The notes under the pieces are model-generated. The model was given only the letters and a program-made list of their open reading frames with translations, made no database searches and had not been told where the DNA came from. Source: Candidatus Poribacteria bacterium (lineage in GTDB: Bacteria > Poribacteria > WGA-4E > PCPOR2b). From it: a DNA stretch of 59,716 bases. A program made the translations under genes and the position numbers. The DNA is taken from the NCBI GenBank assembly GCA_022822785.1, contig JAJEAL010000126.1, positions 1-59,716 on the forward strand, given 5' to 3'. Positions 1 to 12,101 of this stretch are shown one piece after another (position 1 is the first letter of the stretch; every line of letters begins with the position of its first letter).

Positions 1-60
1 AAGGGCCTCTATAACCACTTCTGCCTTAAATTGAGCGGTGAATCGGCGCCGTTTTGCCAT
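1..60 (-). CDS. IS3-family transposase OrfA, N-terminus (runs off the window)
   Basis: The reverse complement begins with ATG at position 60 and reads MAKRRRFTAQFKAEVVIEAL to the window edge. This is the basic start of the helix-turn-helix OrfA protein of IS3-family elements (HTH_Tnp_1), which binds the element ends and normally joins OrfB by programmed frameshifting. A good ribosome site (AAAGGAG) lies about 8 bases upstream. Only 20 codons are in view, so whether the element is intact cannot be told. Its terminal repeat is at 111-140. Confidence 0.8.
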   Translation of the reverse strand, partial: MAKRRRFTAQFKAEVVIEAL

Positions 61-110
61 CGGATAGCTCCTTTCAATTGCAGTGATATTGTATCACAAT
101 CTTGGTTTAA

Positions 111-140
111 GGAGTGGCCCTAATTTCCGATGGCAGTACA
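111..140 (-). repeat. Terminal inverted repeat of the IS3-family element (5' end)
   Basis: On the minus strand this 30-mer begins TGTACTGCCATCGG and lies about 50 bases upstream of OrfA, where an IS3-family left end should be. Its complement resembles the right end of the relic at 3208: a shared TGGCCC is followed by 20 positions of which 14 match, and both terminate in CA. The tip at 140 marks the insertion point into the neighbouring reading frame. No target duplication can be checked because the other end of the element is outside the window. Confidence 0.65.
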
Positions 141-360
141 AACTCTCAATTATCTTACTTATTTTTCCAATATTTTGGCCTCGACAATGGGTCCACTTTA
201 GGGACAGTACTTCAATTACGAGTTGAGTTGCGTACAGGGGATCTGTTGCTTCCTTCAGATCATCTGCCAGACATGTTGTATCATCTTCTATCGACAGGTC
301 CTCACTATACCAGCATTTGAAGAAATCCATCACTCTTTTCGGGTGCCACTCTTCCATCAT
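141..360 (-). pseudogene. Small hypothetical gene truncated by IS insertion
   Basis: A reading frame starts at ATG 360 with GAGGAG about 12 bases upstream and codes for about 73 native residues (MMEEWHPKRVMDFFKCWYSE...). At position 140 it enters the IS terminal repeat; the last 15 codons and the stop belong to the element. The native part is acidic, with several Trp and Cys residues, and I do not recognise it. It is best read as a gene that lost its 3' end to the insertion. A chance reading frame is possible, but the ribosome site and the abrupt border at the IS tip support a real gene. Confidence 0.5.
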
Positions 361-495
361 TATCCAGATGAACTCCTCGTCAATTAAAGGGAATTATATA
401 CCAAAGTGCCAGATTCGTGTTGGCAGAAATTGTGGTTTGCAATAAGTCAGAAATGACTTGATATTTGAAATCGAACTAGGCATTTATAAATAGAA

Positions 496-536
496 AAAGC
501 ACCAACATATTTACCTACCTCTTATGTTGGTGCTTT
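496..536 (-). terminator. Strong hairpin, probable terminator
   Basis: A perfect 14-bp stem (AAAGCACCAACATA with its complement) surrounds a 13-base loop. It lies just downstream of the small gene ending at 559 and has A/T-rich arms, so it could stop transcription on either strand. On the minus strand the 3' arm ends in a run of T. It separates the small genes on the right from the truncated gene on the left. Confidence 0.65.
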
Positions 537-558
537 CCGATTAGAGTTAGAAAACGAT

Positions 559-717
559 TTAACGGTTATCAGGAATGCTGAGTTTGATAAGCCCTAGTTC
601 AGCTTTGATATCTTTCAAAGCGGTAACAATCTCAATCATCAGTAACTGCTCAAGTGTTATGTCCAACTTTTTGGCTAGATTAACATACCACTCTATGCCT
701 TTTTGGTAATCTCTCAT
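559..717 (-). CDS. Small hypothetical protein, 52 aa
   Basis: The minus-strand frame starts at ATG 717 (MRDYQKGIEWYVNLAKKLDI...) and ends with TAA at 559. AGAGG stands 5-6 bases before the start and the hairpin at 496-536 follows the stop. The product is Leu/Ile/Lys-rich and probably all-helical. The N-terminal segment ending in LEQLLMIEIVTALKDIK could form an amphipathic helix pair, as in small antitoxins or regulators, but no family is recognised. It sits in an AT-rich string of small same-strand genes that probably arrived by transfer. Confidence 0.5.
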   Translation of the reverse strand: MRDYQKGIEWYVNLAKKLDITLEQLLMIEIVTALKDIKAELGLIKLSIPDNR

Positions 718-763
718 TTTAAACCTCTTGATGTTATGTAGATTTTATGGGAAGTTAAACCTT

Positions 764-1033
764 TTAACTTTGACTGTCTATTTGTTCGATGACAGACTCA
801 TACAATCTGCCTGAAGCCAATAAGATTATTTCTTTTCTGATTTCAGATAGACACTTTTTGTGTTCCTCTAACTTTCGGATAGTTGAATTCTTATCACTTT
901 GGTCATAACTGTTAAGTATATTATCATCTGTGCTATTGAGGTATTCAACGTATTCATCAATGGCAGAAATTGCATTGTCAATACCATTATCGATATTGTG
1001 GTTAATCAATGTGAATGCACTAATTTCCTTCAT
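764..1033 (-). CDS. Hypothetical acidic helical protein, 89 aa
   Basis: Starts at ATG 1033 with AGGAGA about 10 bases upstream. The sequence has an Asn/Asp-rich N-terminal part (NIDNGIDNAISAIDEYVEYL) and a charged C-terminal helix containing LEEHKKCLSEIRKEI, suggesting a helical bundle or coiled coil. No signal peptide or membrane segment is visible and no family is recognised. It is separated by 46 bases from the 52-aa gene downstream and may be co-transcribed with it. Composition is AT-rich like the rest of 141-3207. Confidence 0.5.
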   Translation of the reverse strand: MKEISAFTLINHNIDNGIDNAISAIDEYVEYLNSTDDNILNSYDQSDKNSTIRKLEEHKKCLSEIRKEIILLASGRLYESVIEQIDSQS

Positions 1034-1125
1034 AATATATTCTTCTCCTGTAAGTGTCTATCACCCGTTATGTAGAATTCCCTTGCATATCAAGCAGAGG
1101 GTCTGTTAGGATATGCCCGACGTAT

Positions 1126-1308
1126 TCATAGGTAAAGCGTTCCACCGTCAGGTATAATCCTTGTCTTACCTGACTCATAAACAACTAACGTCCTTCGAGA
1201 GTACTCGTCTAATGAGAGCAGAAGGCGGCTTGATTCCAACTCTTCATCACTCAGAGGATTATCCTCTTCATTGGTGTGTAAAGGTTTTTCTTCTTTGATG
1301 TTGTCCAC
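1126..1308 (-). CDS. Hypothetical acidic protein, 60 aa
   Basis: Reads from a GTG at 1308 (first residues MDNIKEEKPLHTNEEDNPLS) with AGAAGG just upstream. The N-terminal half is very acidic and probably disordered; the C-terminal half (SRRTLVVYESGKTRIIPDGG) has alternating beta-strand character. No family is recognised. It points away from the plus-strand gene at 1429, and the hairpin at 1321-1348 lies between them. The ribosome site is reasonable, but the short length keeps confidence low. Confidence 0.4.
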   Translation of the reverse strand: MDNIKEEKPLHTNEEDNPLSDEELESSRLLLSLDEYSRRTLVVYESGKTRIIPDGGTLYL

Positions 1309-1320
1309 CGCCCTTCTGAG

Positions 1321-1348
1321 AGGGGCATTTGGTCGGACAAATGCCCCT
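1321..1348. terminator. 11-bp GC-rich hairpin between divergent small genes
   Basis: AGGGGCATTTG and its exact complement flank a 6-base loop. On the plus strand it is followed by TATATTTA rather than a clean T run. It lies just upstream of the minus-strand start at 1308 and just before the promoter of the 1429 gene, so it may insulate the two units or act as a leader structure. A regulatory palindrome is an equal possibility. Confidence 0.35.
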
Positions 1349-1368
1349 TATATTTAACGTGCTGGTAG

Positions 1369-1396
1369 TTGTCATATTTCATCTTTGTGGTATAAT
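1369..1396 (+). promoter_or_regulatory. Sigma70-type promoter for the 1429 gene
   Basis: TTGTCA (1369-1374) and a consensus TATAAT (1391-1396) are 16 bases apart. The expected start of transcription is near 1403, about 26 bases before the ATG at 1429. Confidence 0.65.
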
Positions 1397-1428
1397 ATCT
1401 TGTGAAAATGTATGAAAGGAGGGCTAAA

Positions 1429-1638
1429 ATGGCTATGCCAGATATTATTGAAAGACTTGCGGCGCATGAACATGAACAGTGGGCGCATTGGACACGCTAT
1501 ATGCTTAATAACCTCACAGAAGAAAACATTGCCCGTTGGCGTGAGCAGATTGATACTTCCTACGATGACCTATCTGAAACTGAAAAAGAGAGTGATAGGG
1601 AATGGGCAAGAAAAGCACTTGAAATCGTTAGCAATTAG
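1429..1638 (+). CDS. Small protein with an EHEQW...EKESDREWA pattern (RyR-like), 69 aa
   Basis: The start at 1429 is chosen because GAAAGGAGGG ends 5 bases before it, and a consensus promoter fits this start better than the upstream in-frame ATG. The conserved-looking elements are EHEQWAHWTRYM near the N-terminus and LSETEKESDREWARKALEIV near the C-terminus. This resembles a small protein family common in phages and accessory regions and related to the RyR fold (Trp, Tyr and an E-x-D-R-x-W pattern). Function is unknown. Its 3' end overlaps the convergent membrane-protein gene by 11 bases. Confidence 0.6.
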   Translation: MAMPDIIERLAAHEHEQWAHWTRYMLNNLTEENIARWREQIDTSYDDLSETEKESDREWARKALEIVSN

Positions 1639-2152
1639 CGCATTGTTGGTAAATGATGATACAGAAGAGCATGAGATATAAAACAACAAAGAGCCATGGG
1701 ATATTCATTTCAATGTGTGTAGTCTGCTCATATTTCTGTGGGTCTTTACCTTCACCAAGGGCTTTCCATTCTGAGTCATAAGGTGCAAAAGGCAGTTTTT
1801 TTTCTATGCTAAGAATTACGCCGAATTTTCCATCATTAAGTTGCTTATGTGATTTTATTGTCCGATACCATTGATAACATAATGCTAATCCAAGCACAAT
1901 AATTGGTATTTGCATCCAAACAAAAGCATTATTAACAGAGCTATAACGAAAACTATATCCAATTACAGCAATTAGCGCTGTGTTCAATGTGAGAAAAAAA
2001 TTGTTAGCTGATTGTCTCCGTGTGCTAACGGCATCCGCTGTTCCTGCATAGAATTTGTACAATTCTATTACGTGATTTTTATAATCACTTCCATAGTCTT
2101 TCTCAGATTTTTCTCCTGTTAATTGATTGTCATTATCCCCATCTTTTGACAT
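1628..2152 (-). CDS. Three-helix membrane protein, RipA/8xMP-like, putative TIR-system effector
   Basis: The 174-residue protein has a charged N-terminal region, then HVIELYKFYAGTADAVSTRR, then hydrophobic segments at about 52-67 and 77-96, a cytosolic stretch of about 50 residues, and a third segment at about 151-168. The layout and the VIELYKFYAGTADAVSxRRQSANxFF pattern recall the RipA-family octameric membrane proteins (8xMP), small effectors that sit next to immune genes. Family membership is judged by eye. It is the last gene of an operon with two TIR genes (27-base gap, AGAGGG before the ATG). By analogy with Thoeris and CBASS, it may be opened by a TIR-made nucleotide signal to damage the inner membrane; this is inference. 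A SLATT-type protein is the main alternative. Confidence 0.65.
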   Translation of the reverse strand: MSKDGDNDNQLTGEKSEKDYGSDYKNHVIELYKFYAGTADAVSTRRQSANNFFLTLNTALIAVIGYSFRYSSVNNAFVWMQIPIIVLGLALCYQWYRTIKSHKQLNDGKFGVILSIEKKLPFAPYDSEWKALGEGKDPQKYEQTTHIEMNIPWLFVVLYLMLFCIIIYQQCANC

Positions 2153-2179
2153 GCCGTTACCCTCTCATTTTATAACTTA

Positions 2180-2677
2180 CTAACGAGTCATTATTTTTAA
2201 CCTATCATGCACTTGCTCAGTAAGATCGACTTGCTGAGAGAATGTAACGTTCTCACGAAGTGCCCTATTAGTGAGTCTCCGATCAGTGCGATCTTTGTAA
2301 GTGTTATAGATGTAACCATATTGGCGAAGTCCATCAGTGTTTCGTAATACTGGCCAATCATTTAAGTATTCAGGAAGGGCACTTTTTTCAAGGTTGGTAA
2401 ATGTTGATATAATTCTTGGAGCCCGACGAGCGACACCAATTTCAAATGGAACCCACCAAGACCCCTCTGTGTTCTCCGTAACGATGGCTAACAGATGACT
2501 GCATTCTTCCAGACGATCAAGGATTAGCTCCGTAATACGATTTGTTCGTTGGGCTTCATTCGTAAATCGATCAAAATCGTCAAGATAGCACTTGATATTA
2601 TGAATGGTGTGTAAATGATAAAAAACGTTTTGGGCAAGTTTATCATCTTTTGTTCGGTGTGAAATAAAAACTGGCAT
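2180..2677 (-). CDS. TIR domain protein, 165 aa
   Basis: The protein begins at once with the TIR beta-A strand (MPVFISHRTKDDKLAQNVFY). It continues through a CYLDD BB-type region and LLAIVTENT to SWWVPFEIGVA, where Glu79 fits the catalytic glutamate of NAD-processing TIR enzymes. Bacterial TIR proteins of this size either make cyclic ADP-ribose signals or deplete NAD+. It is the middle gene of three (21 bases after the first TIR gene, 27 before the membrane-protein gene), with AAAGGAG before the start. The C-terminal 50 residues are helical and charged. Which TIR senses infection and which makes a signal cannot be read from sequence. Confidence 0.8.
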   Translation of the reverse strand: MPVFISHRTKDDKLAQNVFYHLHTIHNIKCYLDDFDRFTNEAQRTNRITELILDRLEECSHLLAIVTENTEGSWWVPFEIGVARRAPRIISTFTNLEKSALPEYLNDWPVLRNTDGLRQYGYIYNTYKDRTDRRLTNRALRENVTFSQQVDLTEQVHDRLKIMTR

Positions 2678-2698
2678 TTTAACTCCTTTTACTTATAT

Positions 2699-3115
2699 TC
2701 ATGAAACATCTCTAATGGCGGAAATTATGCTTTTTGTGTTCCACTTGACTATTTCATCTGCAGCATCCTTAACTTTCACAGATGTCCTTTCACTTCCTCG
2801 TGGTTCAACTGCAATAATAGGTTTTGTATATGTAAATTCATTTTGAGCAATATAGATTTCTTTATCAATCCATTTGCTGTGAGTTGCATAAACACCTGCC
2901 AATATCAGGACAACACTACTATGGCTTATTTGCTCCTTTATGGCATTATAGAGTTGACGGTCTGTGCCGTTTGTGTGTAAAGGGTCGTCCTTTGGAACAG
3001 AATAATCACTATAGCGAAAACGAGAACGAGGAATTCTGTCCAGTAAACCCGTTATATTGTAATAACTATCACTATAAGACCAAGAATGGCTAATGAATAG
3101 ATGGTAAGTTCTCAT
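2699..3115 (-). CDS. ThsB-like TIR protein (MTH538/DUF1863 type), 138 aa
   Basis: The pattern HLFISHSWSYSDSYYNITGL, then SDYSVPKDDPLHTNG, then VVLILAGVYATHSKWIDKEI is typical of MTH538-like TIR proteins (PF08937), the family of Thoeris ThsB. ThsB proteins detect phage and synthesise an ADP-ribose-derived signal from NAD+. Glu86 in SKWIDKEIYIA is the likely catalytic residue and Ser9-His10 lies in the first loop. It is the first gene of the operon, with AAAGGAGA before the ATG. The usual ThsA partner (SIR2-SLOG or macro-TM) is absent; a second TIR and a small membrane protein take its place. Confidence 0.8.
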   Translation of the reverse strand: MRTYHLFISHSWSYSDSYYNITGLLDRIPRSRFRYSDYSVPKDDPLHTNGTDRQLYNAIKEQISHSSVVLILAGVYATHSKWIDKEIYIAQNEFTYTKPIIAVEPRGSERTSVKVKDAADEIVKWNTKSIISAIRDVS

Positions 3116-3207
3116 CGTTAGTTCTCCTTTGGATATATTTCAAATTGAATAACATAAACTTTCGTAATTGTATCACATCCCCCAGTGCCGTGCCAAGTCA
3201 AAAAATA

Positions 3208-3387
3208 TGAAGTGCCACCGTTAATTTGGGCCATAAATCCTTAAACTTAAGACAAGTGTTTTTGTTCAAATTCAGTAGGTGTCAAATAGCCTAACGCCGC
3301 TATATGGCGGGCAACCTCACGGTTGATTGGATGATATTTGTTCCATCTTTTTATCAAGGCGTTTCTGCCATGGTATAGTCTACGCAT
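3208..3387 (-). mobile_element. Relic of an IS3-family element: OrfB C-terminus plus right inverted repeat
   Basis: The minus-strand frame 3387-3247 ends ...HIAALGYLTPTEFEQKHLS, the hallmark C-terminus of IS3-family OrfB integrases (LGYLTPxEFE). It is only 46 residues and lacks the DDE catalytic core. About 40 bases after the stop comes a terminal-repeat-like sequence ending at 3208 that resembles the repeat at 111-140. The element is therefore a decayed 3' end. It lies in the same orientation as the element at the window start, so IS ends flank 141-3207, and its right side abuts the 3' end of hsdR. Confidence 0.7.
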
Positions 3388-3428
3388 TTTTCTTCCTATG
3401 CACCAAGCATTATTTTAGTAGCCACCTG

Positions 3429-6400
3429 TTAGGCGGCAACGTCATAAATACTATTGCCGGCTCCGTAATAGGAATCGTAGATGTGTTGATACACTGCCTC
3501 GCATTTCTGATCAAATATCTCCTGCTCGTAACATTCCGGCAGCATTTCGTCTAAAGTCTTTTGAACAGTTATCTTGACTGCTGCACGGGATCGCTCCCGT
3601 TTGCGCCAATCCAACCCCAACTGTTCCTGTTTGAGTGTCGTGAGTAACCTTCTCGATATAGTTTTCACTCCATCTCTCTCCTCTGCGGTCAAATCCATCT
3701 CAGGTCGGGTTAAGAGGTCAAAGACAGCGAGTTCTTCCTCGGAGAGTTGCTCGGCGATGGCGCGTTGGTCCTCCTCGTTAAGTTCGCCCGCCAGTGCTAC
3801 CAGTTGATTAAACCACACATCGACATCTATTCCCGCTTCATTGTATGCCGCGATCATCTGCTCGAATCGTTTCTGGTAATCCATTCGGGTTTTATTGAGT
3901 CGGACCATCTCGGACAACTTTCGATTGATTGATCCCCTCAGTTTTTCTGCTTCAATCTGTTTTCGTCCGGTTCTGTATTTTTCCCTGAGCTGGTCGAAAT
4001 CTATCTCGCTCAGATTCATAGCGAGATGTGCCTGGTCATCCGCGTTGATAGCGTAACTGGCTGGAACGATTGAACGGTCGAGTAGATCTTTGATTGCGTC
4101 CATCACCTCTGAGGTATCCGGCGGTGGGGTCAGGTTTTTTATTTTCTGGGCGATGATGTTGATGAGACCGCAGATTCGGCTGAATTCATTCGCACCGGCG
4201 TCCGGGAGGATTGCTTTGTACAGATTGTAGACTTGATTTGCGCGTTGTAGATAGCCCTTTTTGGTTTCATCGTTGACCACTATCTTGTCCACCGCATCGT
4301 CAATCTGGGCTATCCGTTCAAAGGTGTCTGTATTTGTATCGATCTGGTCAAGGTTGATGCCGAGTCCCCCACAGGACACTTTCATCTGCACAAGTGTCTC
4401 CCTGAGCGCCTCGACAAGTTCCGATTTCGCGCGAATCGGATTCCTGCCTTCTGGATCGGTTCCTTCTGCATAAATAGCCAATGCCCGCTCAAGATTCCGG
4501 AAGATGCCGATGTAATCGACGATTAAGCCGTTGACTTTATCCTGAAAGACGCGGTTGGCTCTGGCGATGGTCTGCATCAGGGTATGGTTGCGTTGGGGTT
4601 TGTCCAGATAGATCGTCGAGCAGGAGGGCACATCGAAACCGGTCATCCACATCGCACAGACGAAAACGATGCGGAATGGATCGTCTGGATCTTTAAATTT
4701 GGTATCCAGATCCTCCCTGACCATGCGGCTCCGGTGCGGAACAATATCCACGTCTCTCCGCCTCAGATCATCAATCTCGTTCTGTGACTGGGAGACCACG
4801 ACCGCCATATCGGTTTGATCCATGTACTCAATTCTTGCCTGAAGGATTTCTGCTTCTTCCTCTGCGACCGTGTTTTCCAAACTCGCCTCCAACTCCTCGC
4901 GGTAACGCCTCCAATGTTCCTGCACCTTGTCATACATCTTGACGGCGGTGGCTTTGTCTATCGAGATAACCATCGCCTTGCCGCGGTATCCACGTCCCAT
5001 AAAGTGCGAAACAATATCTTCGGCGATAGCTTCCAAACGTTCCTCCCGCGTGATGAGATGGTACTGCCTGGCGAACTCTCGCTCGATCCGGTCCTCCTGC
5101 GCTTCATCGAGTTCCGCGTTCTCCATAATCCTCACTATATCTTCGTCGAGGTGTTCATTGTCCAGCTGCACGGTGGGAACCCGGTTCTCGTAGTAGAGCG
5201 GCACGGTCGCACCATCTGCGATCGACTGTCTAAAATCGTAAGTAGAAACATACTCCCCGAACACCTCCTTTGTCCGTTCCTCGCTGGCGATTAACGGCGT
5301 TCCGGTGAACGCGATGAACGCGGCATTGGGGAGCGCTGTGCGCATATTCAACGCTAAGCTGTCATACTGGCTGCGGTGCGATTCATCGGTGATCACGATG
5401 ATATTTGACCGATCCGAGAGGACGGGGTGTTTCGCACCGTCGTTTGTCTGGAACTTCTGGATGAGGGTGAAGATGTAGCGATGGTCTTCGCTCAGGAGCT
5501 GTCGGAGATGTTGGATATTTTCCGCATGGGGCTCCGGACCGCTGACCACCCCTCTGCTGTCAGCGAAGTTTTTGTAGATCTGGTCGTCCAACTCCTTGCG
5601 ATCCGTCACGATAACGAAACGCCAGCCGCCCGGTATCTTTCTCAGTACCTTCTGGGCGAAGAAGATCATTGAGATACTCTTTCCTGAGCCTTGTGTATGC
5701 CAGAACACACCGAGCTTCCCGAAATTCGCGTTTCGGTCTTGTAGGGATTCGACTGCGTTGTTGACGCCGAGGTACTGGTGGTTCTTGGCGATCAGTTTAA
5801 CCGGCTCATCTCCGGCTTCCATAAAGACCGTGAAGTTCTCAATGATGTCCAACAGCCGGCGATGGTCACAGATACCTTTCAAAATTGTTTGTATCGAGAC
5901 CTCCCCCGGTTCAGTTTCGCCCTCGATCCGTTTCCACTCGGTGAAGTGTTCCCAGTTGGCGGTTAGGCTACCAAATTTGCTCTCTGAGCCGTTGGAAAGG
6001 ATAATCAGGGCATTATACCAGAATAGGTGGGGGATTGTGTCCTGGTAGTCCCTGAGATTGTCCTGGTAGGCGTCGTGGAGGCTCTTGTCAACCCGTTTGA
6101 GCTCTATCAACACAAGCGGCAGACCATTAATGAAGCCGATAACGTCCGGTCGTCGGGTATACATCTCGCCGGTGATCCAGAACTGGGAGGCGAGAAAGAA
6201 GTCGTTGTTCTCTGGGTTGTCCCAATCAATTACCTTCAGGATCACATCGACCGGGCTGTCGTCGGCTGGGTCGGGAACTCTAACTTTTACACCCTCTTTT
6301 AGCTGGACGTAGATCTCGTAATTGGCTTCTGAACGAGATAGCCCCGGGCGGGAACGGGTCAGTTCCTCAACAGCTTCGTCTATTGCTTCATCGGACGTAT

Positions 6401-6587
6401 CAGGGTTGAGTCGCTCCAGGGCGGCGCGTAATTTTGATTTAAGGACAACCTCGCCCCTGTTCTCCCGACCGAGCGGACTGCTACCGCCCTCAAATTCATC
6501 GTAACAGTCACGCCATGTCCACCCCATTCCTTCGAGTAGTTCAATCGCCGCTTTTTCGAGTCGGTCTTCGCTATCTGGATTATGCAC
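3429..6587 (-). CDS. hsdR: Type I restriction enzyme, R (motor/nuclease) subunit HsdR
   Basis: The 1052-residue protein has the full HsdR layout. A PD-(D/E)xK nuclease domain has Asp148 in RRPDVIGF and Glu162/Lys164 in LIELKR. Two RecA-like helicase domains follow, with Walker A WHTQGSGKS near 300, DESH at 401-404 and an FTGTPL motif, then a long helical C-terminus that docks on the methylase core. It translocates DNA and cuts far from the site when bound to HsdM/HsdS at unmodified targets. The start is a GTG at 6587, supported by GAGGA 8 bases upstream; it lies 18 bases after the DUF5615 gene. Length and motifs are normal, so it looks functional. An IS3 relic lies 40 bases past its stop. Confidence 0.95.
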   Translation of the reverse strand: MHNPDSEDRLEKAAIELLEGMGWTWRDCYDEFEGGSSPLGRENRGEVVLKSKLRAALERLNPDTSDEAIDEAVEELTRSRPGLSRSEANYEIYVQLKEGVKVRVPDPADDSPVDVILKVIDWDNPENNDFFLASQFWITGEMYTRRPDVIGFINGLPLVLIELKRVDKSLHDAYQDNLRDYQDTIPHLFWYNALIILSNGSESKFGSLTANWEHFTEWKRIEGETEPGEVSIQTILKGICDHRRLLDIIENFTVFMEAGDEPVKLIAKNHQYLGVNNAVESLQDRNANFGKLGVFWHTQGSGKSISMIFFAQKVLRKIPGGWRFVIVTDRKELDDQIYKNFADSRGVVSGPEPHAENIQHLRQLLSEDHRYIFTLIQKFQTNDGAKHPVLSDRSNIIVITDESHRSQYDSLALNMRTALPNAAFIAFTGTPLIASEERTKEVFGEYVSTYDFRQSIADGATVPLYYENRVPTVQLDNEHLDEDIVRIMENAELDEAQEDRIEREFARQYHLITREERLEAIAEDIVSHFMGRGYRGKAMVISIDKATAVKMYDKVQEHWRRYREELEASLENTVAEEEAEILQARIEYMDQTDMAVVVSQSQNEIDDLRRRDVDIVPHRSRMVREDLDTKFKDPDDPFRIVFVCAMWMTGFDVPSCSTIYLDKPQRNHTLMQTIARANRVFQDKVNGLIVDYIGIFRNLERALAIYAEGTDPEGRNPIRAKSELVEALRETLVQMKVSCGGLGINLDQIDTNTDTFERIAQIDDAVDKIVVNDETKKGYLQRANQVYNLYKAILPDAGANEFSRICGLINIIAQKIKNLTPPPDTSEVMDAIKDLLDRSIVPASYAINADDQAHLAMNLSEIDFDQLREKYRTGRKQIEAEKLRGSINRKLSEMVRLNKTRMDYQKRFEQMIAAYNEAGIDVDVWFNQLVALAGELNEEDQRAIAEQLSEEELAVFDLLTRPEMDLTAEERDGVKTISRRLLTTLKQEQLGLDWRKRERSRAAVKITVQKTLDEMLPECYEQEIFDQKCEAVYQHIYDSYYGAGNSIYDVAA

Positions 6588-6604
6588 TACTTCGTCCTCA
6601 TATT

Positions 6605-6967
6605 TTAGTCTGTTGGGATCAGTGGTGTCATGCGTACGCGGTTTTCGTCAACAACAGAGAAGTGTCCTGCCCAGTCCGTCCGGCTTTCCAGCACAGTAAC
6701 CGCTGTTTGGGCAACGAAGGAGGGTGAATCGGGTGGAATGCGAAACAGAATAACCCCCGAAGGTGCGTTGAGTCCTAATCGGAAGACTAACTCACCGAAA
6801 TCTTTATCGAACGTAATCAGTATCCGTTCTTCAACTGTAGCGCGGGATAGCACTGCGCGATCATCGATGCCGGGTGAATCCTCCCGTATCCATATCACGT
6901 CATGCCCCCGTAAACGGAGGGCGGCGATTGCGACGCCGGGAAAATTCTCATTCACCAACAGGCGCAT
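6605..6967 (-). CDS. DUF5615 PIN-like protein, putative toxin
   Basis: The 120-residue protein starts MRLLVNENFPGVAIAALRLR and contains RGHDVIWIRED, RAVLSRATVEERILITFDKDFGEL and GVILFRI. These match the DUF5615 PIN-like family, in which Asn/Asp residues (NEN, DKDFGE) take the place of the PIN nuclease acidic site. Such proteins pair with DUF433 proteins as VapC-like toxin modules. The ATG at 6967 has GAGG upstream and lies 20 bases inside the end of the DUF433 gene, so translation is coupled. The pair is inserted between hsdS and hsdR. RNase activity is inferred from the family only. Confidence 0.8.
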   Translation of the reverse strand: MRLLVNENFPGVAIAALRLRGHDVIWIREDSPGIDDRAVLSRATVEERILITFDKDFGELVFRLGLNAPSGVILFRIPPDSPSFVAQTAVTVLESRTDWAGHFSVVDENRVRMTPLIPTD

Positions 6968-7223
6968 CTGCTAACCTCATGGGAAGTGGGTAGACCTTTT
7001 CAGCATGTAACGTCGCGCTTGCGTAAGCGAGACATGCCCGAATGTCGTCAACCACAATACCGGGGTAATTTTCAAGAATTTCTGCTTCAGTCCAGCCGTG
7101 TGCTAGCAGGTCAATAATGAACTCAACCGCTAAGCGGGTGCCTTTGATAACAGGCTTTCCGGTCAGAACTGCTTCGTCAATAACGATTCGGTCTGTCCAT
7201 TGTTGCAGAGGTTCGGGTTGCAT
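6948..7223 (-). CDS. DUF433 family protein, putative antitoxin
   Basis: The 91-residue protein contains the DUF433 core DRIVIDEAVLTGKPVIKGTR, then LAVEFIIDLLAHGWTEAEILENYPGI and DIRACLAYA, a winged-helix DNA-binding fold. DUF433 proteins occur next to DUF5615 or PIN proteins and are taken as the antitoxin and autoregulator. The start at 7223 is chosen because AAAGGAGA lies 8 bases upstream; the longer frame to 7316 would overlap hsdS. The gene begins 28 bases after hsdS and overlaps the toxin-like gene by 20 bases. Confidence 0.8.
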   Translation of the reverse strand: MQPEPLQQWTDRIVIDEAVLTGKPVIKGTRLAVEFIIDLLAHGWTEAEILENYPGIVVDDIRACLAYASATLHAEKVYPLPMRLADAPVGE

Positions 7224-7251
7224 ATGATTATTCTCCTTTTGGGGAATGGCA

Positions 7252-8436
7252 TCAGTCAATATCAAGTTCGGATATGTCAATCTCACCAGAGATGAGTTTT
7301 GGGAGAAGGAGATCACGGGTTTGGCGGAGGGTGGCGTTTCTAATGGTCAATTCCCGTATTAGATTTAGCATGGGACGAACAATATTACCGAACTGTTCTA
7401 TCAATGAATTTGGAGGTCTGACAATTGACATCCGAGCTAGTACACCGTCCCACGTTGCATAAGGGATCGTGCTTCCGGTTGAATGATTGCTTGAATATTC
7501 AACCGTTGAATCTTGAAACATTGTAAATAGGTCAAAGGGATAGTTGATAGGATTTTTTGATCTCAAAACAAAACAGGTTTGTCTGGTAATGCCATCAAAA
7601 GGAGCGAAAACGACCTTGTGGAAATAAGATCGCATAGCACCAAATAGGATGTCATTTCTTTTGAAAGCAATCAGACTGCTCTTGGCTTCGCTAGATGGGT
7701 TGTGTACAGTCAATGCTATTGACCGTCTCGGAATACAATCAATTGGAACATATGGCAACGGTTCTAAGTGTTTACCTGGTTTTACTTTTTCCTTGATGTT
7801 TTCAATAATGTCTCCGAGTTGCTCGATCTCCCAGCCCTGGGGTATCAAGCCCAACTCCGACTCCACCATCTCCACCCCCTCATGTCCGGGGAAGCGGAAC
7901 TCGACAAACCATTCTCGGTAGATTGCGGCCGCCATCTCTTCAAGGATTTTGATGCGGCGGGTGTTGTTCTCGATGAGGTCGTCGTAGGCGCTGAGGACAG
8001 CGGCGATTTTGTGCTGGATTGGGAAAGGTGGTAGGAGTAATTTTATTGCTTTAAGATTCCTCTGTGATAATTTCGGTTGTGCAGTTCCTGTGATATAGCC
8101 TGAAATAACCACGTCAGACATAGCGAAGTACAGAAAGTCTGTTGGCATCGGTGATTTGGCTCGAATAACATGAGCATGATTGCTTACCCAAAACTGCCCT
8201 GTCACTAATTGCAGGACAGGTTTTCCTTCTGCTGTAATAACGCTTCCATCCTCTGCAATCAACAGGTATTTCCCATCAAAAATGTAATCATCAATAGAAT
8301 CAATAATTTTTGTCGCCCCGTAATACGGATATTCTCCCTGCCTTTGACTTCTCTGCTGCGCACTCAAGGGTATGCGCTTGTGATCGTAGAGTTCGATCAC
8401 CTCACCTAAAGTTGTTTCTGTCCATGAGTTTGTCAC
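7252..8436 (-). CDS. hsdS: Type I restriction-modification specificity subunit HsdS
   Basis: The 394-residue protein has two target-recognition domains. The first begins [20 protein letters not shown] and ends in [28 protein letters not shown], the conserved spacer helix. The second starts at [19 protein letters not shown] and ends with the matching helix and [13 protein letters not shown]. Each domain reads one half of a bipartite DNA site and the helices set the spacing. Its start overlaps the hsdM stop by 4 bases. Both domains look complete. The target sequence cannot be predicted from the protein. Confidence 0.95.
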
Positions 8437-10001
8437 ACTGTCTCCTCCAAAATCATCGCTACATTCTCAGAGATCCGTTCTTCCAACTGATGCGCTTCGG
8501 CGTTCAGGACTTCCAGTTCCTCGTTAAGTTCTCCCAGCCGTTCCGCGAAGTCAAACGTATCTGCCTCCCGATCCGCGACCCCGACATACCGTCCCGGATT
8601 AAGGCTCCACCCTTGCGCTTCGATTTCTTCAATCGTAGCCACCTTGCAGAGACCGGGCACGTCAACGTACACATCATTGGGGAACGGTTCCACCATCAAT
8701 TCCGCGCTGTTGTGTTGGTTTTCAGGGGCTTCACCTCGATACAACCGCGCAATGTTGGACAGGAACTCAATCTGTTGTGGGGTGAACTCTCGATGCGCTC
8801 TATCGACCTGATGGTAGATATGGCGGGCATCGATGAACAACACCTGATCCCCCCGCTCACTTCCCGCTTTGGACCTGTCGAAGAACCAGAGGGTACAGGG
8901 GAGTGTGACGGTGTAGAAGAAATTAGACGAAATGCTCACCATCACATCGACGGCGCGGGATTCGATAATCTGCCTGCGAATCTCCATCTCAGAGGCGCGG
9001 GCATCCGCGGCGGAGTTCGCCATGACAAAGCCGGCCCGACCGGAGGCGTTGAGTGCGCTATAGAATAGCTGGATCCAGAGATAATTGGCGTTATTTACGC
9101 GGGGCATCCCGATCGGAAACCTTGGGTCATCCTTAATGCGCTCCTTGTCCACCCGATCCACGTTGAACGGCGGATTCGCCATTACGAAGTCAAATGCCTC
9201 TATGCACCGATGCGGATCGGCGTAGTAGCTGTTGGCTTCGCGTATATCGCCTTCCAGTCCGTGGACGGCGAGATTCATCTTGCAGAGCCGGATCGTTTCT
9301 GAAACACGCTCTGTTCCGTAAATACTAATCTGATCGGTCGCGTTCTGCTGGTGGTTATGGACGAACTCGGCGCTCTGGACGAACATACCGCCAGAGCCGC
9401 ACGCGGGGTCCAGGATCTGCCCCTGGAACGGTTGGATAATCTCGACAATCAGTTTTACTAAGGAGGTAGGTGTAAAGAACTCGCCGCCGCGTTGCCCTTC
9501 TCCCATGGCAAAGTTGCCCAGGAAATACTCGTAGATTTTGCCGAAGGCATCGCCCTCGATGTCCATCGGGATCTCTGACATTGTGCGGAGCAGTTCAATC
9601 AGGACAGGTTTTTCGAGGCGGTTATAGGTTTTGGGGAGGACACCATCAAGCTGTCTGTTCTTCGCCTCAATTGCGCGCATCGCGTCGTTGATAGCTCTAC
9701 CAGTGTCTTCGCCCTCTTTTAGGGTCAACAGGTACTGGAAACGCGCTTCCTCTGGTAGGTAAAACGCACCGCGGGCGTGATATGCTGCGGTTTGGTCTGT
9801 GATTCTTGTGCGTCTGCTCCTGGTGGATGCCTCTTCTCTGATTTCCTGTTCCGCCTGCGTGAACTTGTGCTCTGCGTATCGCAGGAATATCAGCCCCAGT
9901 ACAGGCGTTGAATACTCAGACCCCCTGAGATTCGAGTTCGCCCTTAATTCGTCTGCCATCGCCCAGAGGCGGGTTTCGATACCGTTCTGGTTCGTATTCA
10001 A
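8433..10001 (-). CDS. hsdM: Type I restriction-modification DNA methylase subunit HsdM
   Basis: The 522-residue protein has an HsdM N-terminal helical domain ([22 protein letters not shown]) followed by a gamma-class N6-adenine methylase domain. SAM motif I is DPACGSGG (198-205), the [11 protein letters not shown] segment precedes it, and the catalytic motif is NPPF (276-279). It methylates adenine in the HsdS-defined site and is needed for both modification and restriction. The start is a TTG at 10001 with AGGAGATG upstream; the next in-frame ATG is inside the N-terminal domain. It is the first gene of hsdM-hsdS-DUF433-DUF5615-hsdR. Confidence 0.95.
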
Positions 10002-10124
10002 ATTATCATCTCCTATTTAATCGTAATTCGGCTTCAACCATCTATGTTCAATTTCAAACCATATCACCTCTGGCAGAAGTGGACTGACGGGAAGAAGATT
10101 AGATACGCGTGTTCTGTACAGCGG

Positions 10125-10970
10125 TCAATGTGATTTGCCCAAGCTCGCGGGTGGAGTTGCTTTACCAATCACACCGACGAGGACGATCATCGTGAGTAGG
10201 TAGGGAAGGCTGTTTAGGAACTGCGGTGGGAGGTGCCAACGGTTGGCTAGCTCCAAAGCGCCCGCGAATCCGAAGAGCAGACAAGCCGCACCGGATCCGA
10301 GGGGTTTCCACTTGCCGAAAATGACCGCTGCCAGGGCGACATACCCACGCCCGGCGGTCATCCCTTTTGTAAAATAATGTGCTTCCGATGCCAAAAGGCA
10401 CCCGCCGATCCCAGCAAGGAGGCCGCTAATCACTACGCCAATATATTGCTGCCTTGACCGACTGAGTCCAAGCGTATCCAGCGCTTCGGTGGATTCACCT
10501 GCCGCACATAAGCGGAGCCCCAACACTGTCTTGAAGAGGACGATCTGACTGATAATCACAAGGACAAGTGTCAGGTATATAAGGAACGAATACGATCCGA
10601 TCAGCGGCAAATCCCAATGACTCAACCCCTCTACCCGCCGAGAGGTAGCGCTGCGCCCAAGAAGCTCCGTGACACCGATTGCTAATAGATTGATTGATAC
10701 GCCGCTGACAATCTGGTCTGCGCGAAAGGTGATGGACGCGATTGCGTGAAGCAGCCCCATCCCCCCGCCACAAGCGATACCAATTACTAATCCCAGCCAT
10801 GGTGAACCAGAGGCATGTGTTCCAATCACATAGCCAAACGCTCCCATAAGCATCATGCCTTCGAGTCCGATGTTCACCACGCCGGACCGTTCCGAGTAGA
10901 CACCGCCGAGTGCCGCCAAAGCCAATGGTGCTGACATACGAACTGTCATCGGGATGAGCTCAAAAAACAT
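10125..10970 (-). CDS. ABC transporter permease, simple sugar/nucleoside type (BPD_transp_2)
   Basis: The 281-residue protein is almost all membrane helices (about eight to nine). It carries the family signature PLALAALGGVYSERSGVVNIGLEGMM near the N-terminus and the cytosolic loop GLRLCAAGESTEALDTLGLSRSR, which contacts the ATPase. This subfamily (YufQ/NupQ, BmpA-linked) imports nucleosides or similar compounds. It is usually the last gene of a set of binding protein, ATPase and two permeases, but none of those partners is in the window. Upstream on the same strand is a dehydrogenase gene. The rest of the transporter has either been separated from it or lies elsewhere. Confidence 0.85.
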   Translation of the reverse strand: MFFELIPMTVRMSAPLALAALGGVYSERSGVVNIGLEGMMLMGAFGYVIGTHASGSPWLGLVIGIACGGGMGLLHAIASITFRADQIVSGVSINLLAIGVTELLGRSATSRRVEGLSHWDLPLIGSYSFLIYLTLVLVIISQIVLFKTVLGLRLCAAGESTEALDTLGLSRSRQQYIGVVISGLLAGIGGCLLASEAHYFTKGMTAGRGYVALAAVIFGKWKPLGSGAACLLFGFAGALELANRWHLPPQFLNSLPYLLTMIVLVGVIGKATPPASLGKSH

Positions 10971-10999
10971 TATCGGAATTTCCCACGTAATTTCATCTC

Positions 11000-11056
11000 A
11001 ACGCAAGGACACAAAGAAGCGTCTTTATTTTTTTATCGTCTTTGCGCCTTTGCGTT
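11000..11056. repeat. Inverted repeat of the AACGCAAAGGCGCAAAGACG type
   Basis: An imperfect inverted pair of about 20 bases (left arm from 11000, right arm 11037-11056) is separated by a T-rich stretch. The right arm's complement reads AACGCAAAGGCGCAAAGACG, a sequence type that recurs between genes in many environmental bacterial genomes. It lies in the gap between the dehydrogenase and permease genes and may end the dehydrogenase transcript. Only this copy is clear in the window. Confidence 0.5.
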
Positions 11057-11063
11057 AAAATTC

Positions 11064-12101
11064 TTACTGGCACAGGTGCACTTTGATTGCACCGGAACGC
11101 TTATCAGCAGAAATCCTGAAGCCTTCGGCAACCTCCATCAGTGGGAGCCGATGGGTTACCAGTTTTGTCGCATCAACTTTGCCCGATGCGATGAGGTCGA
11201 TGGCAGCATCAAAATCGGTGTCCATACCGGTGTAGCCGTAGCAGTTAGAACCGGTGACAATCGCCTCCGATCCAACGATACGTCCCAAATTCACCTTGAG
11301 CGGCTCGTAATACCCCGCGACAAGGACAACAACCCCACAACTCCTGACCATATCCATCGCAGCGTCGAAGTTGTGTCCACCGCCAACCGTTTCTATCACA
11401 GCGTCCATCCCGCGACCGCCGGTGATGTCCTTCACATACTCATTGGGATCTGTCTCGCCGATGTTGACCACATGATCCGCACCGAGATCCTTTGCGAGTT
11501 CGGCTTGCTGATCATACTTGACGGTGATGAGCGTTTCCTTGACACCCGCTGCGACCGCCGCTGCTAAGGCGAATTGTCCGATGGTTCCACCGCCAATAAT
11601 TGCAACTCTGTCCTGATAGGTCGCCCGCGCCTGTCCGATAGCGCGGTAGGAGACTGCGAGCGGCTCCACCAAAGCCCCCTCCTCGAAACTCATGCTTTCC
11701 GGCAGCTTGAAAAGCCCCGAAGCGTGGGCGGTGGTGTACTCCGAAAAGCCGCCGTGTGTATTCTGCGAAACCCACTTGCGTTCCAGACAGTGGTTATAGT
11801 AACCTTTTCGACAGTAGACGCAATTCCCACAGTGTGAGAAGCATTCAATGGTGACCTTATCGCCCGGTTGGAGTGTTGTAACGCCGTCCCCAAGTTCAAC
11901 AACAATCCCGCACGTTTCATGCCCCGCGGCGAGGTTATCAGATTGACCCCAGTGCCCAAAATAGCTATGGAGATCGCTGCCACAGATGCCTGTGCACTTG
12001 GTGTCGAGCATAACATACCCCGGCCCAGGAGATTTTTTCTCAACCTCTTGGATGCCTATCTGTTCGATACCGGTATAAATTGCTGCCTTCATCGTACTCA
12101 T
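11064..12101 (-). CDS. Zinc-dependent medium-chain alcohol/polyol dehydrogenase
   Basis: The 345-residue protein has all marks of the zinc MDR family. Catalytic zinc ligands are Cys in TGICGSDLHSYFGH and His-Glu in AAGHETCG; four structural zinc cysteines lie in CFSHCGNCVYCRKGYYNHC; the Rossmann motif is IIGGGTIGQ. The order resembles sorbitol or L-threonine 3-dehydrogenases, so it likely oxidises a secondary alcohol of a sugar or amino acid with NAD(P)+. The substrate is not determined. GAGGGAGA precedes the ATG at 12101. The nearest gene upstream on the same strand is the NHL-repeat gene, 69 bases away. Confidence 0.9.
   Translation of the reverse strand: MSTMKAAIYTGIEQIGIQEVEKKSPGPGYVMLDTKCTGICGSDLHSYFGHWGQSDNLAAGHETCGIVVELGDGVTTLQPGDKVTIECFSHCGNCVYCRKGYYNHCLERKWVSQNTHGGFSEYTTAHASGLFKLPESMSFEEGALVEPLAVSYRAIGQARATYQDRVAIIGGGTIGQFALAAAVAAGVKETLITVKYDQQAELAKDLGADHVVNIGETDPNEYVKDITGGRGMDAVIETVGGGHNFDAAMDMVRSCGVVVLVAGYYEPLKVNLGRIVGSEAIVTGSNCYGYTGMDTDFDAAIDLIASGKVDATKLVTHRLPLMEVAEGFRISADKRSGAIKVHLCQ

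Follow-up and report, generated by a model that had tools for sequence, protein, structure and literature searches.

Bacterial defence systems that are built around TIR domains have been described with several kinds of partner. Type II Thoeris combines ThsB with a TM-macro ThsA, that is, a TIR protein with a membrane effector (PMC11204291, in the passages seen). Type IV Thoeris, for which passages of PMC12847820 and PMC13373217 cite Rousset et al. 2025 Science, consists of a TIR protein and a caspase-like protease, and the same passages of PMC12847820 report that the TIR product N7-cADPR activates this protease and that some bacterial TIR systems rapidly deplete NAD+ directly. Pairings of a TIR with a membrane effector and of a TIR with a caspase are already known, and the pairing of a TIR with an 8xMP membrane protein considered here is apparently new. 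No report of 8xMP as a TIR effector was found among the matches listed in the open-access literature, a weak negative since most subscription papers lie outside that scope.

The window analysed (59,716 nucleotides) is one whole contig of a 5.6 Mb assembly of a Candidatus Poribacteria bacterium. A block of three minus-strand genes, read from 3115 to 1628, encodes TIR1 (138 aa), TIR2 (165 aa) and 8xMP (174 aa), with intergenic gaps of 21 and 27 bases and a purine-rich, ribosome-site-like stretch before each of the three ATGs (Table 1). Coordinates, strand, lengths and purine-rich stretches all agree with a first-pass annotation made from the letters of the DNA, in which three tightly spaced minus-strand genes with ribosome sites had been described. 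The block is likely to be a Thoeris-like abortive-infection operon, related to type IV (TIR-caspase) systems, in which the caspase-like protease has been replaced by an 8xMP effector. The promoter-like site 5' of TIR1 is weak, because 15 such sites occur in the region and 7.7 are expected.

Table 1. Features of the TIR-8xMP block and its surroundings (positions in the window)
Feature	Position	Strand	Remarks
TIR1	2699..3115	-	ThsB/MTH538-type TIR with SxWxxxE; predicted NAD+-processing signal maker; PF08937, AlphaFold2, Foldseek
TIR2	2180..2677	-	second TIR, 'SWWVPFEIG' class, Glu79; PF13676
8xMP	1628..2152	-	membrane protein modelled with three long helices; effector role proposed; PF24838, AlphaFold2
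RyR-like 78-aa ORF	1402..1638	+	GTG start listed, in-frame ATGs after it; possible sensor or regulator; PF02026 below cut-off
Promoter-like site 5' of TIR1	3167..3196	-	TTGGCA-18-TACAAT, TG before -10; consensus match only
Ribosome-site-like AAAGGAG before TIR1	3124..3130	-	read from sequence
Ribosome-site-like AAAAGGAG before TIR2	2683..2690	-	read from sequence
Ribosome-site-like GAGAGG before 8xMP	2161..2166	-	read from sequence
hsdR, type I restriction	3429..6587	-	neighbour outside the system; with hsdS 7252-8436 and hsdM 8433-10001
Transposase start, HTH_Tnp_1 type	1..60	-	runs off contig end; 9e-4, below cut-off

TIR1 belongs to the ThsB_TIR family (PF08937; 3.5e-16, 59.8 bits, above the curated cut-off of 21.2 bits in Pfam). 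Its AlphaFold2 model (pLDDT 92) was placed by Foldseek near EcThsB (8wcf, TM 0.73) and MTH538 (1eiw, 0.63), scores that many Rossmann-like folds reach similarly. The earlier assignment of the first TIR as ThsB/MTH538-like stands. The SxWxxxE glutamate is the catalytic residue of TIR NADases. In TIR1 the pattern is formed by Ser80-Trp82-Glu86, and Glu86, which had been singled out in advance, is kept in 49/49 8xMP-linked and 29/29 caspase-linked TIR1 rows (78/78 rows with one effector assigned). TIR2 matches TIR_2 (PF13676; 2.1e-7 in Pfam) and carries the motif as Ser73-Trp75-Glu79, the glutamate being present in 10/10 TIR2-class rows of the alignment, as anticipated from its WxxxE-type residue. 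Both proteins thus carry the NADase motif, from which enzymatic activity is predicted.

The third product was assigned by profile search to PF24838 (E 1.7e-39, 135.2 bits, profile positions 1-135 of 136; curated cut-off 30 bits), in keeping with its earlier description as a small 8xMP-like membrane protein that occupies the place of the effector. In the AlphaFold2 monomer model (pLDDT 88, pTM 0.79) three long helices span 24-71, 76-117 and 144-173 and two further helices are short, which also bears out the description of a 174-residue three-helix protein, and hydrophobic peaks lie at about 57-65, 80-93 and 151-169. The most conserved polar residues (R46, N50, N106, K109, E117 and E128) are situated outside these peaks, between or before them, and would face the cytosol by the positive-inside rule. 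R46, N50 and W95 do not vary, and K109 hardly varies, in 8xMP rows with and without a TIR neighbour. In the 20 rows that lack an adjacent TIR the conserved residues are kept about equally, so their conservation is not peculiar to 8xMPs paired with a TIR. A putative octameric state is taken from the Pfam family name only. Foldseek comparison of the model with the PDB returned nothing at E <= 0.001, so that no function is assigned from the fold. As for solved relatives, a single-protein sequence search of the PDB matched nothing, profile matches were weak (best 0.023, mechanosensitive ion channel protein 10), and VIA-align gave Z up to 10.7 with a designed-looking helical trimer, in a range that is common for helical models.

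Comparison with the Thoeris types places the block nearest to TIR-caspase systems. The first-pass annotation had called it a candidate Thoeris-like system; a Thoeris-like TIR system with an 8xMP membrane protein in the place of the effector was indeed found, but the nearest comparison is TIR plus caspase (type IV) and not a SIR2-SLOG or macro-TM ThsA. As in type IV Thoeris, a small TIR is in an operon with an effector, TIR1 intermingles on the tree with caspase-side TIRs, proteins of the TIR2 class also occur in caspase loci and on plasmids an RyR-like gene comes after the caspase, a likeness judged on the caspase-side TIRs of the survey loci. The block differs from type IV in having an 8xMP membrane protein and no caspase-like gene, and no caspase match was made within it by Pfam. 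The genome itself does contain two caspase (C14) matches in one large ORF on another contig (G000:C129, 125143-126678), and about 9 kb from them (135276-135614) is a match to a ThsB-type TIR. Type II Thoeris is similar in combining a TIR with a membrane effector and in that a locus holds one ThsB gene or several, but the membrane protein of the window is above cut-off for 8xMP only and has no macro domain in Pfam. Type I Thoeris shares a TIR of the ThsB_TIR family, but its SIR2-SLOG ThsA was matched neither in a Pfam scan of ten ORFs around the block nor by PADLOC, which upholds the earlier statement that no ThsA lies nearby. A search of the whole genome for a ThsA in trans (STALD/SLOG) matched nothing, but it matched nothing in the control genomes either and so carries no weight. 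With the type III model of NCBIfam (ThcB4), TIR2 scored 12.6 bits against a cut-off of 220, and TIR1 and 8xMP were unmatched.

The partners of TIR1 relatives bear on the effector role of 8xMP. These relatives were collected by scanning with the TIR1 alignment at one genome per species, which gave 205 confirmed proteins; the best 80 were kept, so that the sample favours near relatives. ORFs around them were searched with purpose-built profiles, and a partner was called within 700 bp. Among the best 80 of 205, 44 are accompanied by 8xMP, 29 by a caspase-like gene, one by both and six by neither; one of the six (L113) has an 8xMP at a distance of 1.9 kb. The partner gene mostly abuts TIR1 or overlaps it, and the 8xMP of L118 is on the opposite strand. 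Pfam scanning of selected partners assigned the caspases of L055, L045 and L050 to PF00656 and the 8xMPs of L107, L050 and L104 to PF24838, all over cut-off. Fourteen TIR1 relatives on viral contigs divide similarly among caspase (7), 8xMP (3) and neither (4).

On the TIR1 tree of 85 rows the effector type changes ten times, counted with the row carrying both effectors and the six carrying neither left out, and five to six of these changes are forced by well-supported branches alone, the support values being rough on account of an unsettled bootstrap and a short alignment. Sister TIR1s may have different effectors, as do L048 (8xMP) and L057 (caspase; support 99/93), and L060 and L105 (8xMP) group with the near-identical L055, L056 and L066 (caspase; support 100/97). 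A single clade of caspase-linked TIR1 rows is rejected at p-AU 2.1e-4, a value weakened, like that of the 8xMP clade test given below, by the tests having been run after the trees were seen. Because the effector swaps with the caspase on this tree and Glu86 is kept in both groups, 8xMP is taken to fill the effector slot. We read it as an alternative membrane effector in the place of the caspase, triggered by the TIR product, for which the signal and the pore activity are presumed. If this is correct, natural effector swaps are available for testing if a single signal can open more than one effector, and a function can be assigned to members of the 8xMP family. In a plasmid of Paenarthrobacter (L028:535-4495) the two modules are adjacent, TIR-caspase-RyR being followed by TIR-8xMP.

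Plasmids carry a further kind of partner. TIR1 relatives were found in 99 plasmid records, and in five hand-chosen ones the partner was a caspase in one, an opposite-strand stretch of 8xMP in another and a DUF4231 protein beside TIR1 in three (Rhizobium, Serratia and Enterobacter). These last loci resemble the window in having a membrane protein beside a TIR of the same family, but the families differ (PF18181/PF18184 against PF24838), and in two of the three, Serratia and Enterobacter, the DUF4231 gene runs opposite to TIR1. The two DUF4231 proteins scanned are double SLATT proteins (SLATT_1 + SLATT_3), which Pfam places in the '2TM effector' class. If the proposed reading is true, one TIR lineage would then be plug-and-play, driving a protease in some loci and a membrane protein of the 8xMP or SLATT kind in others.

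These partners also bear on the reverse order of action, in which 8xMP would sense disturbance of the membrane by phage, or tether the TIRs, and activate an NADase that kills the cell by NAD+ depletion. Such direct and rapid depletion is described for some bacterial TIR systems (passages of PMC12847820), and 8xMP is also found without a TIR neighbour, as a general membrane sensor might be. On the other hand, 8xMP takes the place of a caspase-like protease whose action is reported, again in passages of PMC12847820, to come after that of the TIR product, and TIRs of this family stand beside DUF4231/SLATT proteins too. Execution by the TIR is accordingly regarded as unlikely.

The association of 8xMP with TIRs is seen in other collections too, but it is not exclusive. 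In 10 of 16 plasmid 8xMP relatives examined (of 28 records), from bacteria and haloarchaea, an annotated TIR gene is immediately upstream; 4/16 lack one at that position, one of these having a TIR about 2.5 kb off, and 2/16 have no annotation there and contain none of the three TIR classes. In the phylum, a ThsB_TIR gene lies on the same strand within 1.5 kb at 9/30 over-cut-off 8xMP places, where about 0.01 would be expected from density, in a count for which the places were read by eye, the TIR total was rough and two sub-cut-off places were left out. At the other 21 of the 30 no ThsB-type TIR adjoins, so that partnership with a TIR is not the sole setting of 8xMP. Many copies thus lack a TIR neighbour, but no housekeeping role unrelated to TIRs emerged for the family. 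No 8xMP match was made in phage records, and none was found by a single-protein search of viral sequences; this negative is weak because three viral contigs reached via TIR1 do carry 8xMP.

In eight poribacterial loci (L006, L007, L008, L010, L011, L012, L014 and L017) an 8xMP without an adjacent TIR adjoins an apparent P-type ATPase gene, recognised by motifs, and these eight proteins sit close together on the 8xMP tree, at what is a fixed site. This setting would suit an 8xMP that is an accessory of a mobile defence module, serving in immunity, transport or regulation, with the true effector elsewhere in the genome, as would the two caspase matches in one ORF and the further ThsB-type TIRs on other contigs of the same genome. 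Nevertheless, 8xMP is adjacent in 45 of the best 80 (of 205) TIR1 loci, and a caspase-like gene is also nearby in only one of them. Were 8xMP an accessory alone, it would be expected to occur together with a second effector more frequently, and an accessory role is considered distinctly improbable.

For the operon the following course is proposed. TIR1 would detect phage infection, with TIR2 perhaps a second sensor, and would make a nucleotide signal of ADP-ribose type from NAD+. The signal would act on 8xMP as an inner-membrane oligomer, which would then permeabilise or depolarise the membrane of its own cell, such that the cell is halted or killed and the phage is stopped. The modelled ThsB/MTH538-like fold of TIR1 and the three hydrophobic helices of 8xMP would favour this passage of a signal from TIR1 to 8xMP in the membrane. 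The signal is provisionally taken to be an N7-cADPR-like molecule, because N7-cADPR is reported for the TIR-caspase system in passages of PMC12847820. Anti-phage function, NADase activity, the identity of the signal, the role of 8xMP as its receptor and pore formation are all suppositions.

The commonest unit elsewhere is TIR1 with an effector, and TIR2 is a recurring extra. Where both TIRs are present they may divide the labour or may serve two recognition specificities, the two readings offered in the first-pass annotation. TIR2-class proteins occur in 10/80 TIR1 loci (best 80 of 205 relatives) beside either effector: with 8xMP in L050, L100, L107 and L111, and with caspase in L044, L045, L050, L057, L063 and L089. 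They are found with neither in L114. The expectation that the genes would co-occur elsewhere was borne out in that TIR1-8xMP recurs and TIR1, TIR2 and 8xMP are together in 4/80 loci. Their order is unlike that of the window, being 8xMP-TIR2-TIR1 in three loci and caspase-TIR2-8xMP-TIR1, consecutively, in the fourth (L050, Anaerobium). In the phylum, TIR2 matches were made in 6/84 genomes; 8xMP was absent within about 1.5 kb of the five other TIR2 loci, and no other genome of the phylum has the three-gene set. The same set therefore exists elsewhere, but the same order was not recovered, and the combination, with four of 80 loci and, in the phylum, the window alone, is rare yet recurrent.

The genes of the window appear to have come together from different sources. 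TIR1 groups with four poribacterial TIR1s (support 99/95; identity 59-69%). The 8xMPs of those four loci are 71-77% identical among themselves, and that of the window is 31-34% identical to them and 45-48% identical to several from elsewhere, including one on a Synechococcus plasmid (47%). A tree that holds the window 8xMP together with its four poribacterial counterparts is rejected (p-AU 1.35e-9, post hoc as stated above; row L015 shortened). The 8xMP tree was built without pieces shorter than 110 aa and without four duplicate loci (L005, L009, L020 and L034). The ancestry of 8xMP is unlike that of TIR1 and the locus therefore looks reassembled; from the identity pattern and the rejected grouping, the effector has probably been exchanged at this locus too.

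Such mixed ancestry might also be expected of a decayed, non-functional island, pieced together near an IS-type element from horizontally transferred fragments, as might the transposase start at the contig end and the AT-rich composition. GC is 0.34-0.42 across 1-3500 and 0.44-0.56 across 3501-12000, in accordance with the block having been called AT-rich. The view that IS remnants flank it is supported in part only: on the left are 20 codons from the start of a transposase (a sub-cut-off match), and on the right is a 38-codon piece without Pfam support. Decay is very improbable, as the three ORFs are intact and have ribosome-site-like stretches, and the family-conserved residues checked are retained, except that in 8xMP His102 stands where Tyr prevails among the rows.

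Beside the block, and absent from the first-pass annotation, is a plus-strand ORF (1402-1638) that converges on the 8xMP gene and overlaps its end by 11 bases. It matches RyR (PF02026) at 2.6e-5 and 24.8 bits, below the curated cut-off of 27.4, and is hence termed RyR-like only; all ten plasmid relatives examined (of 22 records) likewise match PF02026 below cut-off. A TIR and/or a caspase is adjacent in 9/10 of these. In seven (L028, L147, L148, L150, L156, L159 and L160) a TIR of the T0 class and a caspase are immediately upstream, so that T0-class TIRs also pair with caspase, besides those of the T1 class. L149 has a TIR2-class gene beside the RyR-like one and an annotated caspase about 3 kb upstream, L158 has a caspase fragment beside it, and L157 has neither TIR nor caspase. 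The order in L148 and L156, TIR2-TIR0-caspase-RyR, differs from that of the window in having a T0 and not a T1 TIR, and a caspase and not 8xMP. In both (L148:3300-4679, L156:3293-4675) a metallophosphoesterase gene, which could degrade the signal, directly follows the RyR-like gene.

Within the phylum, six genomes have an RyR match and only that of the window adjoins a TIR of the three classes used. Among 119 loci the only other 8xMP locus with a small RyR-like gene is L028, where it lies after the caspase and 1.8 kb from 8xMP; this search is not exhaustive, because it missed the RyR domain of L061. In that archaeal locus (Methanoperedens, L061:4454-5833, minus strand) one gene, convergent with TIR1, joins an RyR domain that scores over cut-off to SLATT transmembrane domains, and on the other side of TIR1 is a TIR-NACHT protein. 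No viral relatives of the RyR-SLATT protein were found. The contexts as a whole suggest that the RyR-like gene is a part of TIR systems that has been overlooked, in bacterial and archaeal ones alike if true, and that its product may sense or regulate the signal. cADPR has been linked to animal ryanodine receptors. A bacterial counterpart of that signalling, with the RyR-like protein as receptor or buffer of a cADPR-like TIR signal that it relays to the membrane protein, is doubtful, and the fusion beside TIR1 in L061 is the arrangement that it predicts.

Elsewhere around the block, the small ORFs 764-1033 and 1126-1308 have no relatives in the collected loci except the window's own copies, and Rfam at gathering thresholds gave no match across 1-12000. 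The type I RM operon, already recognised as a neighbour, lies upstream of the three genes with hsdR, hsdS and hsdM all present. Between hsdR and hsdS, on the minus strand at 6605-7316, is a DUF5615 and DUF433 pair, which we take to resemble a toxin-antitoxin pair.
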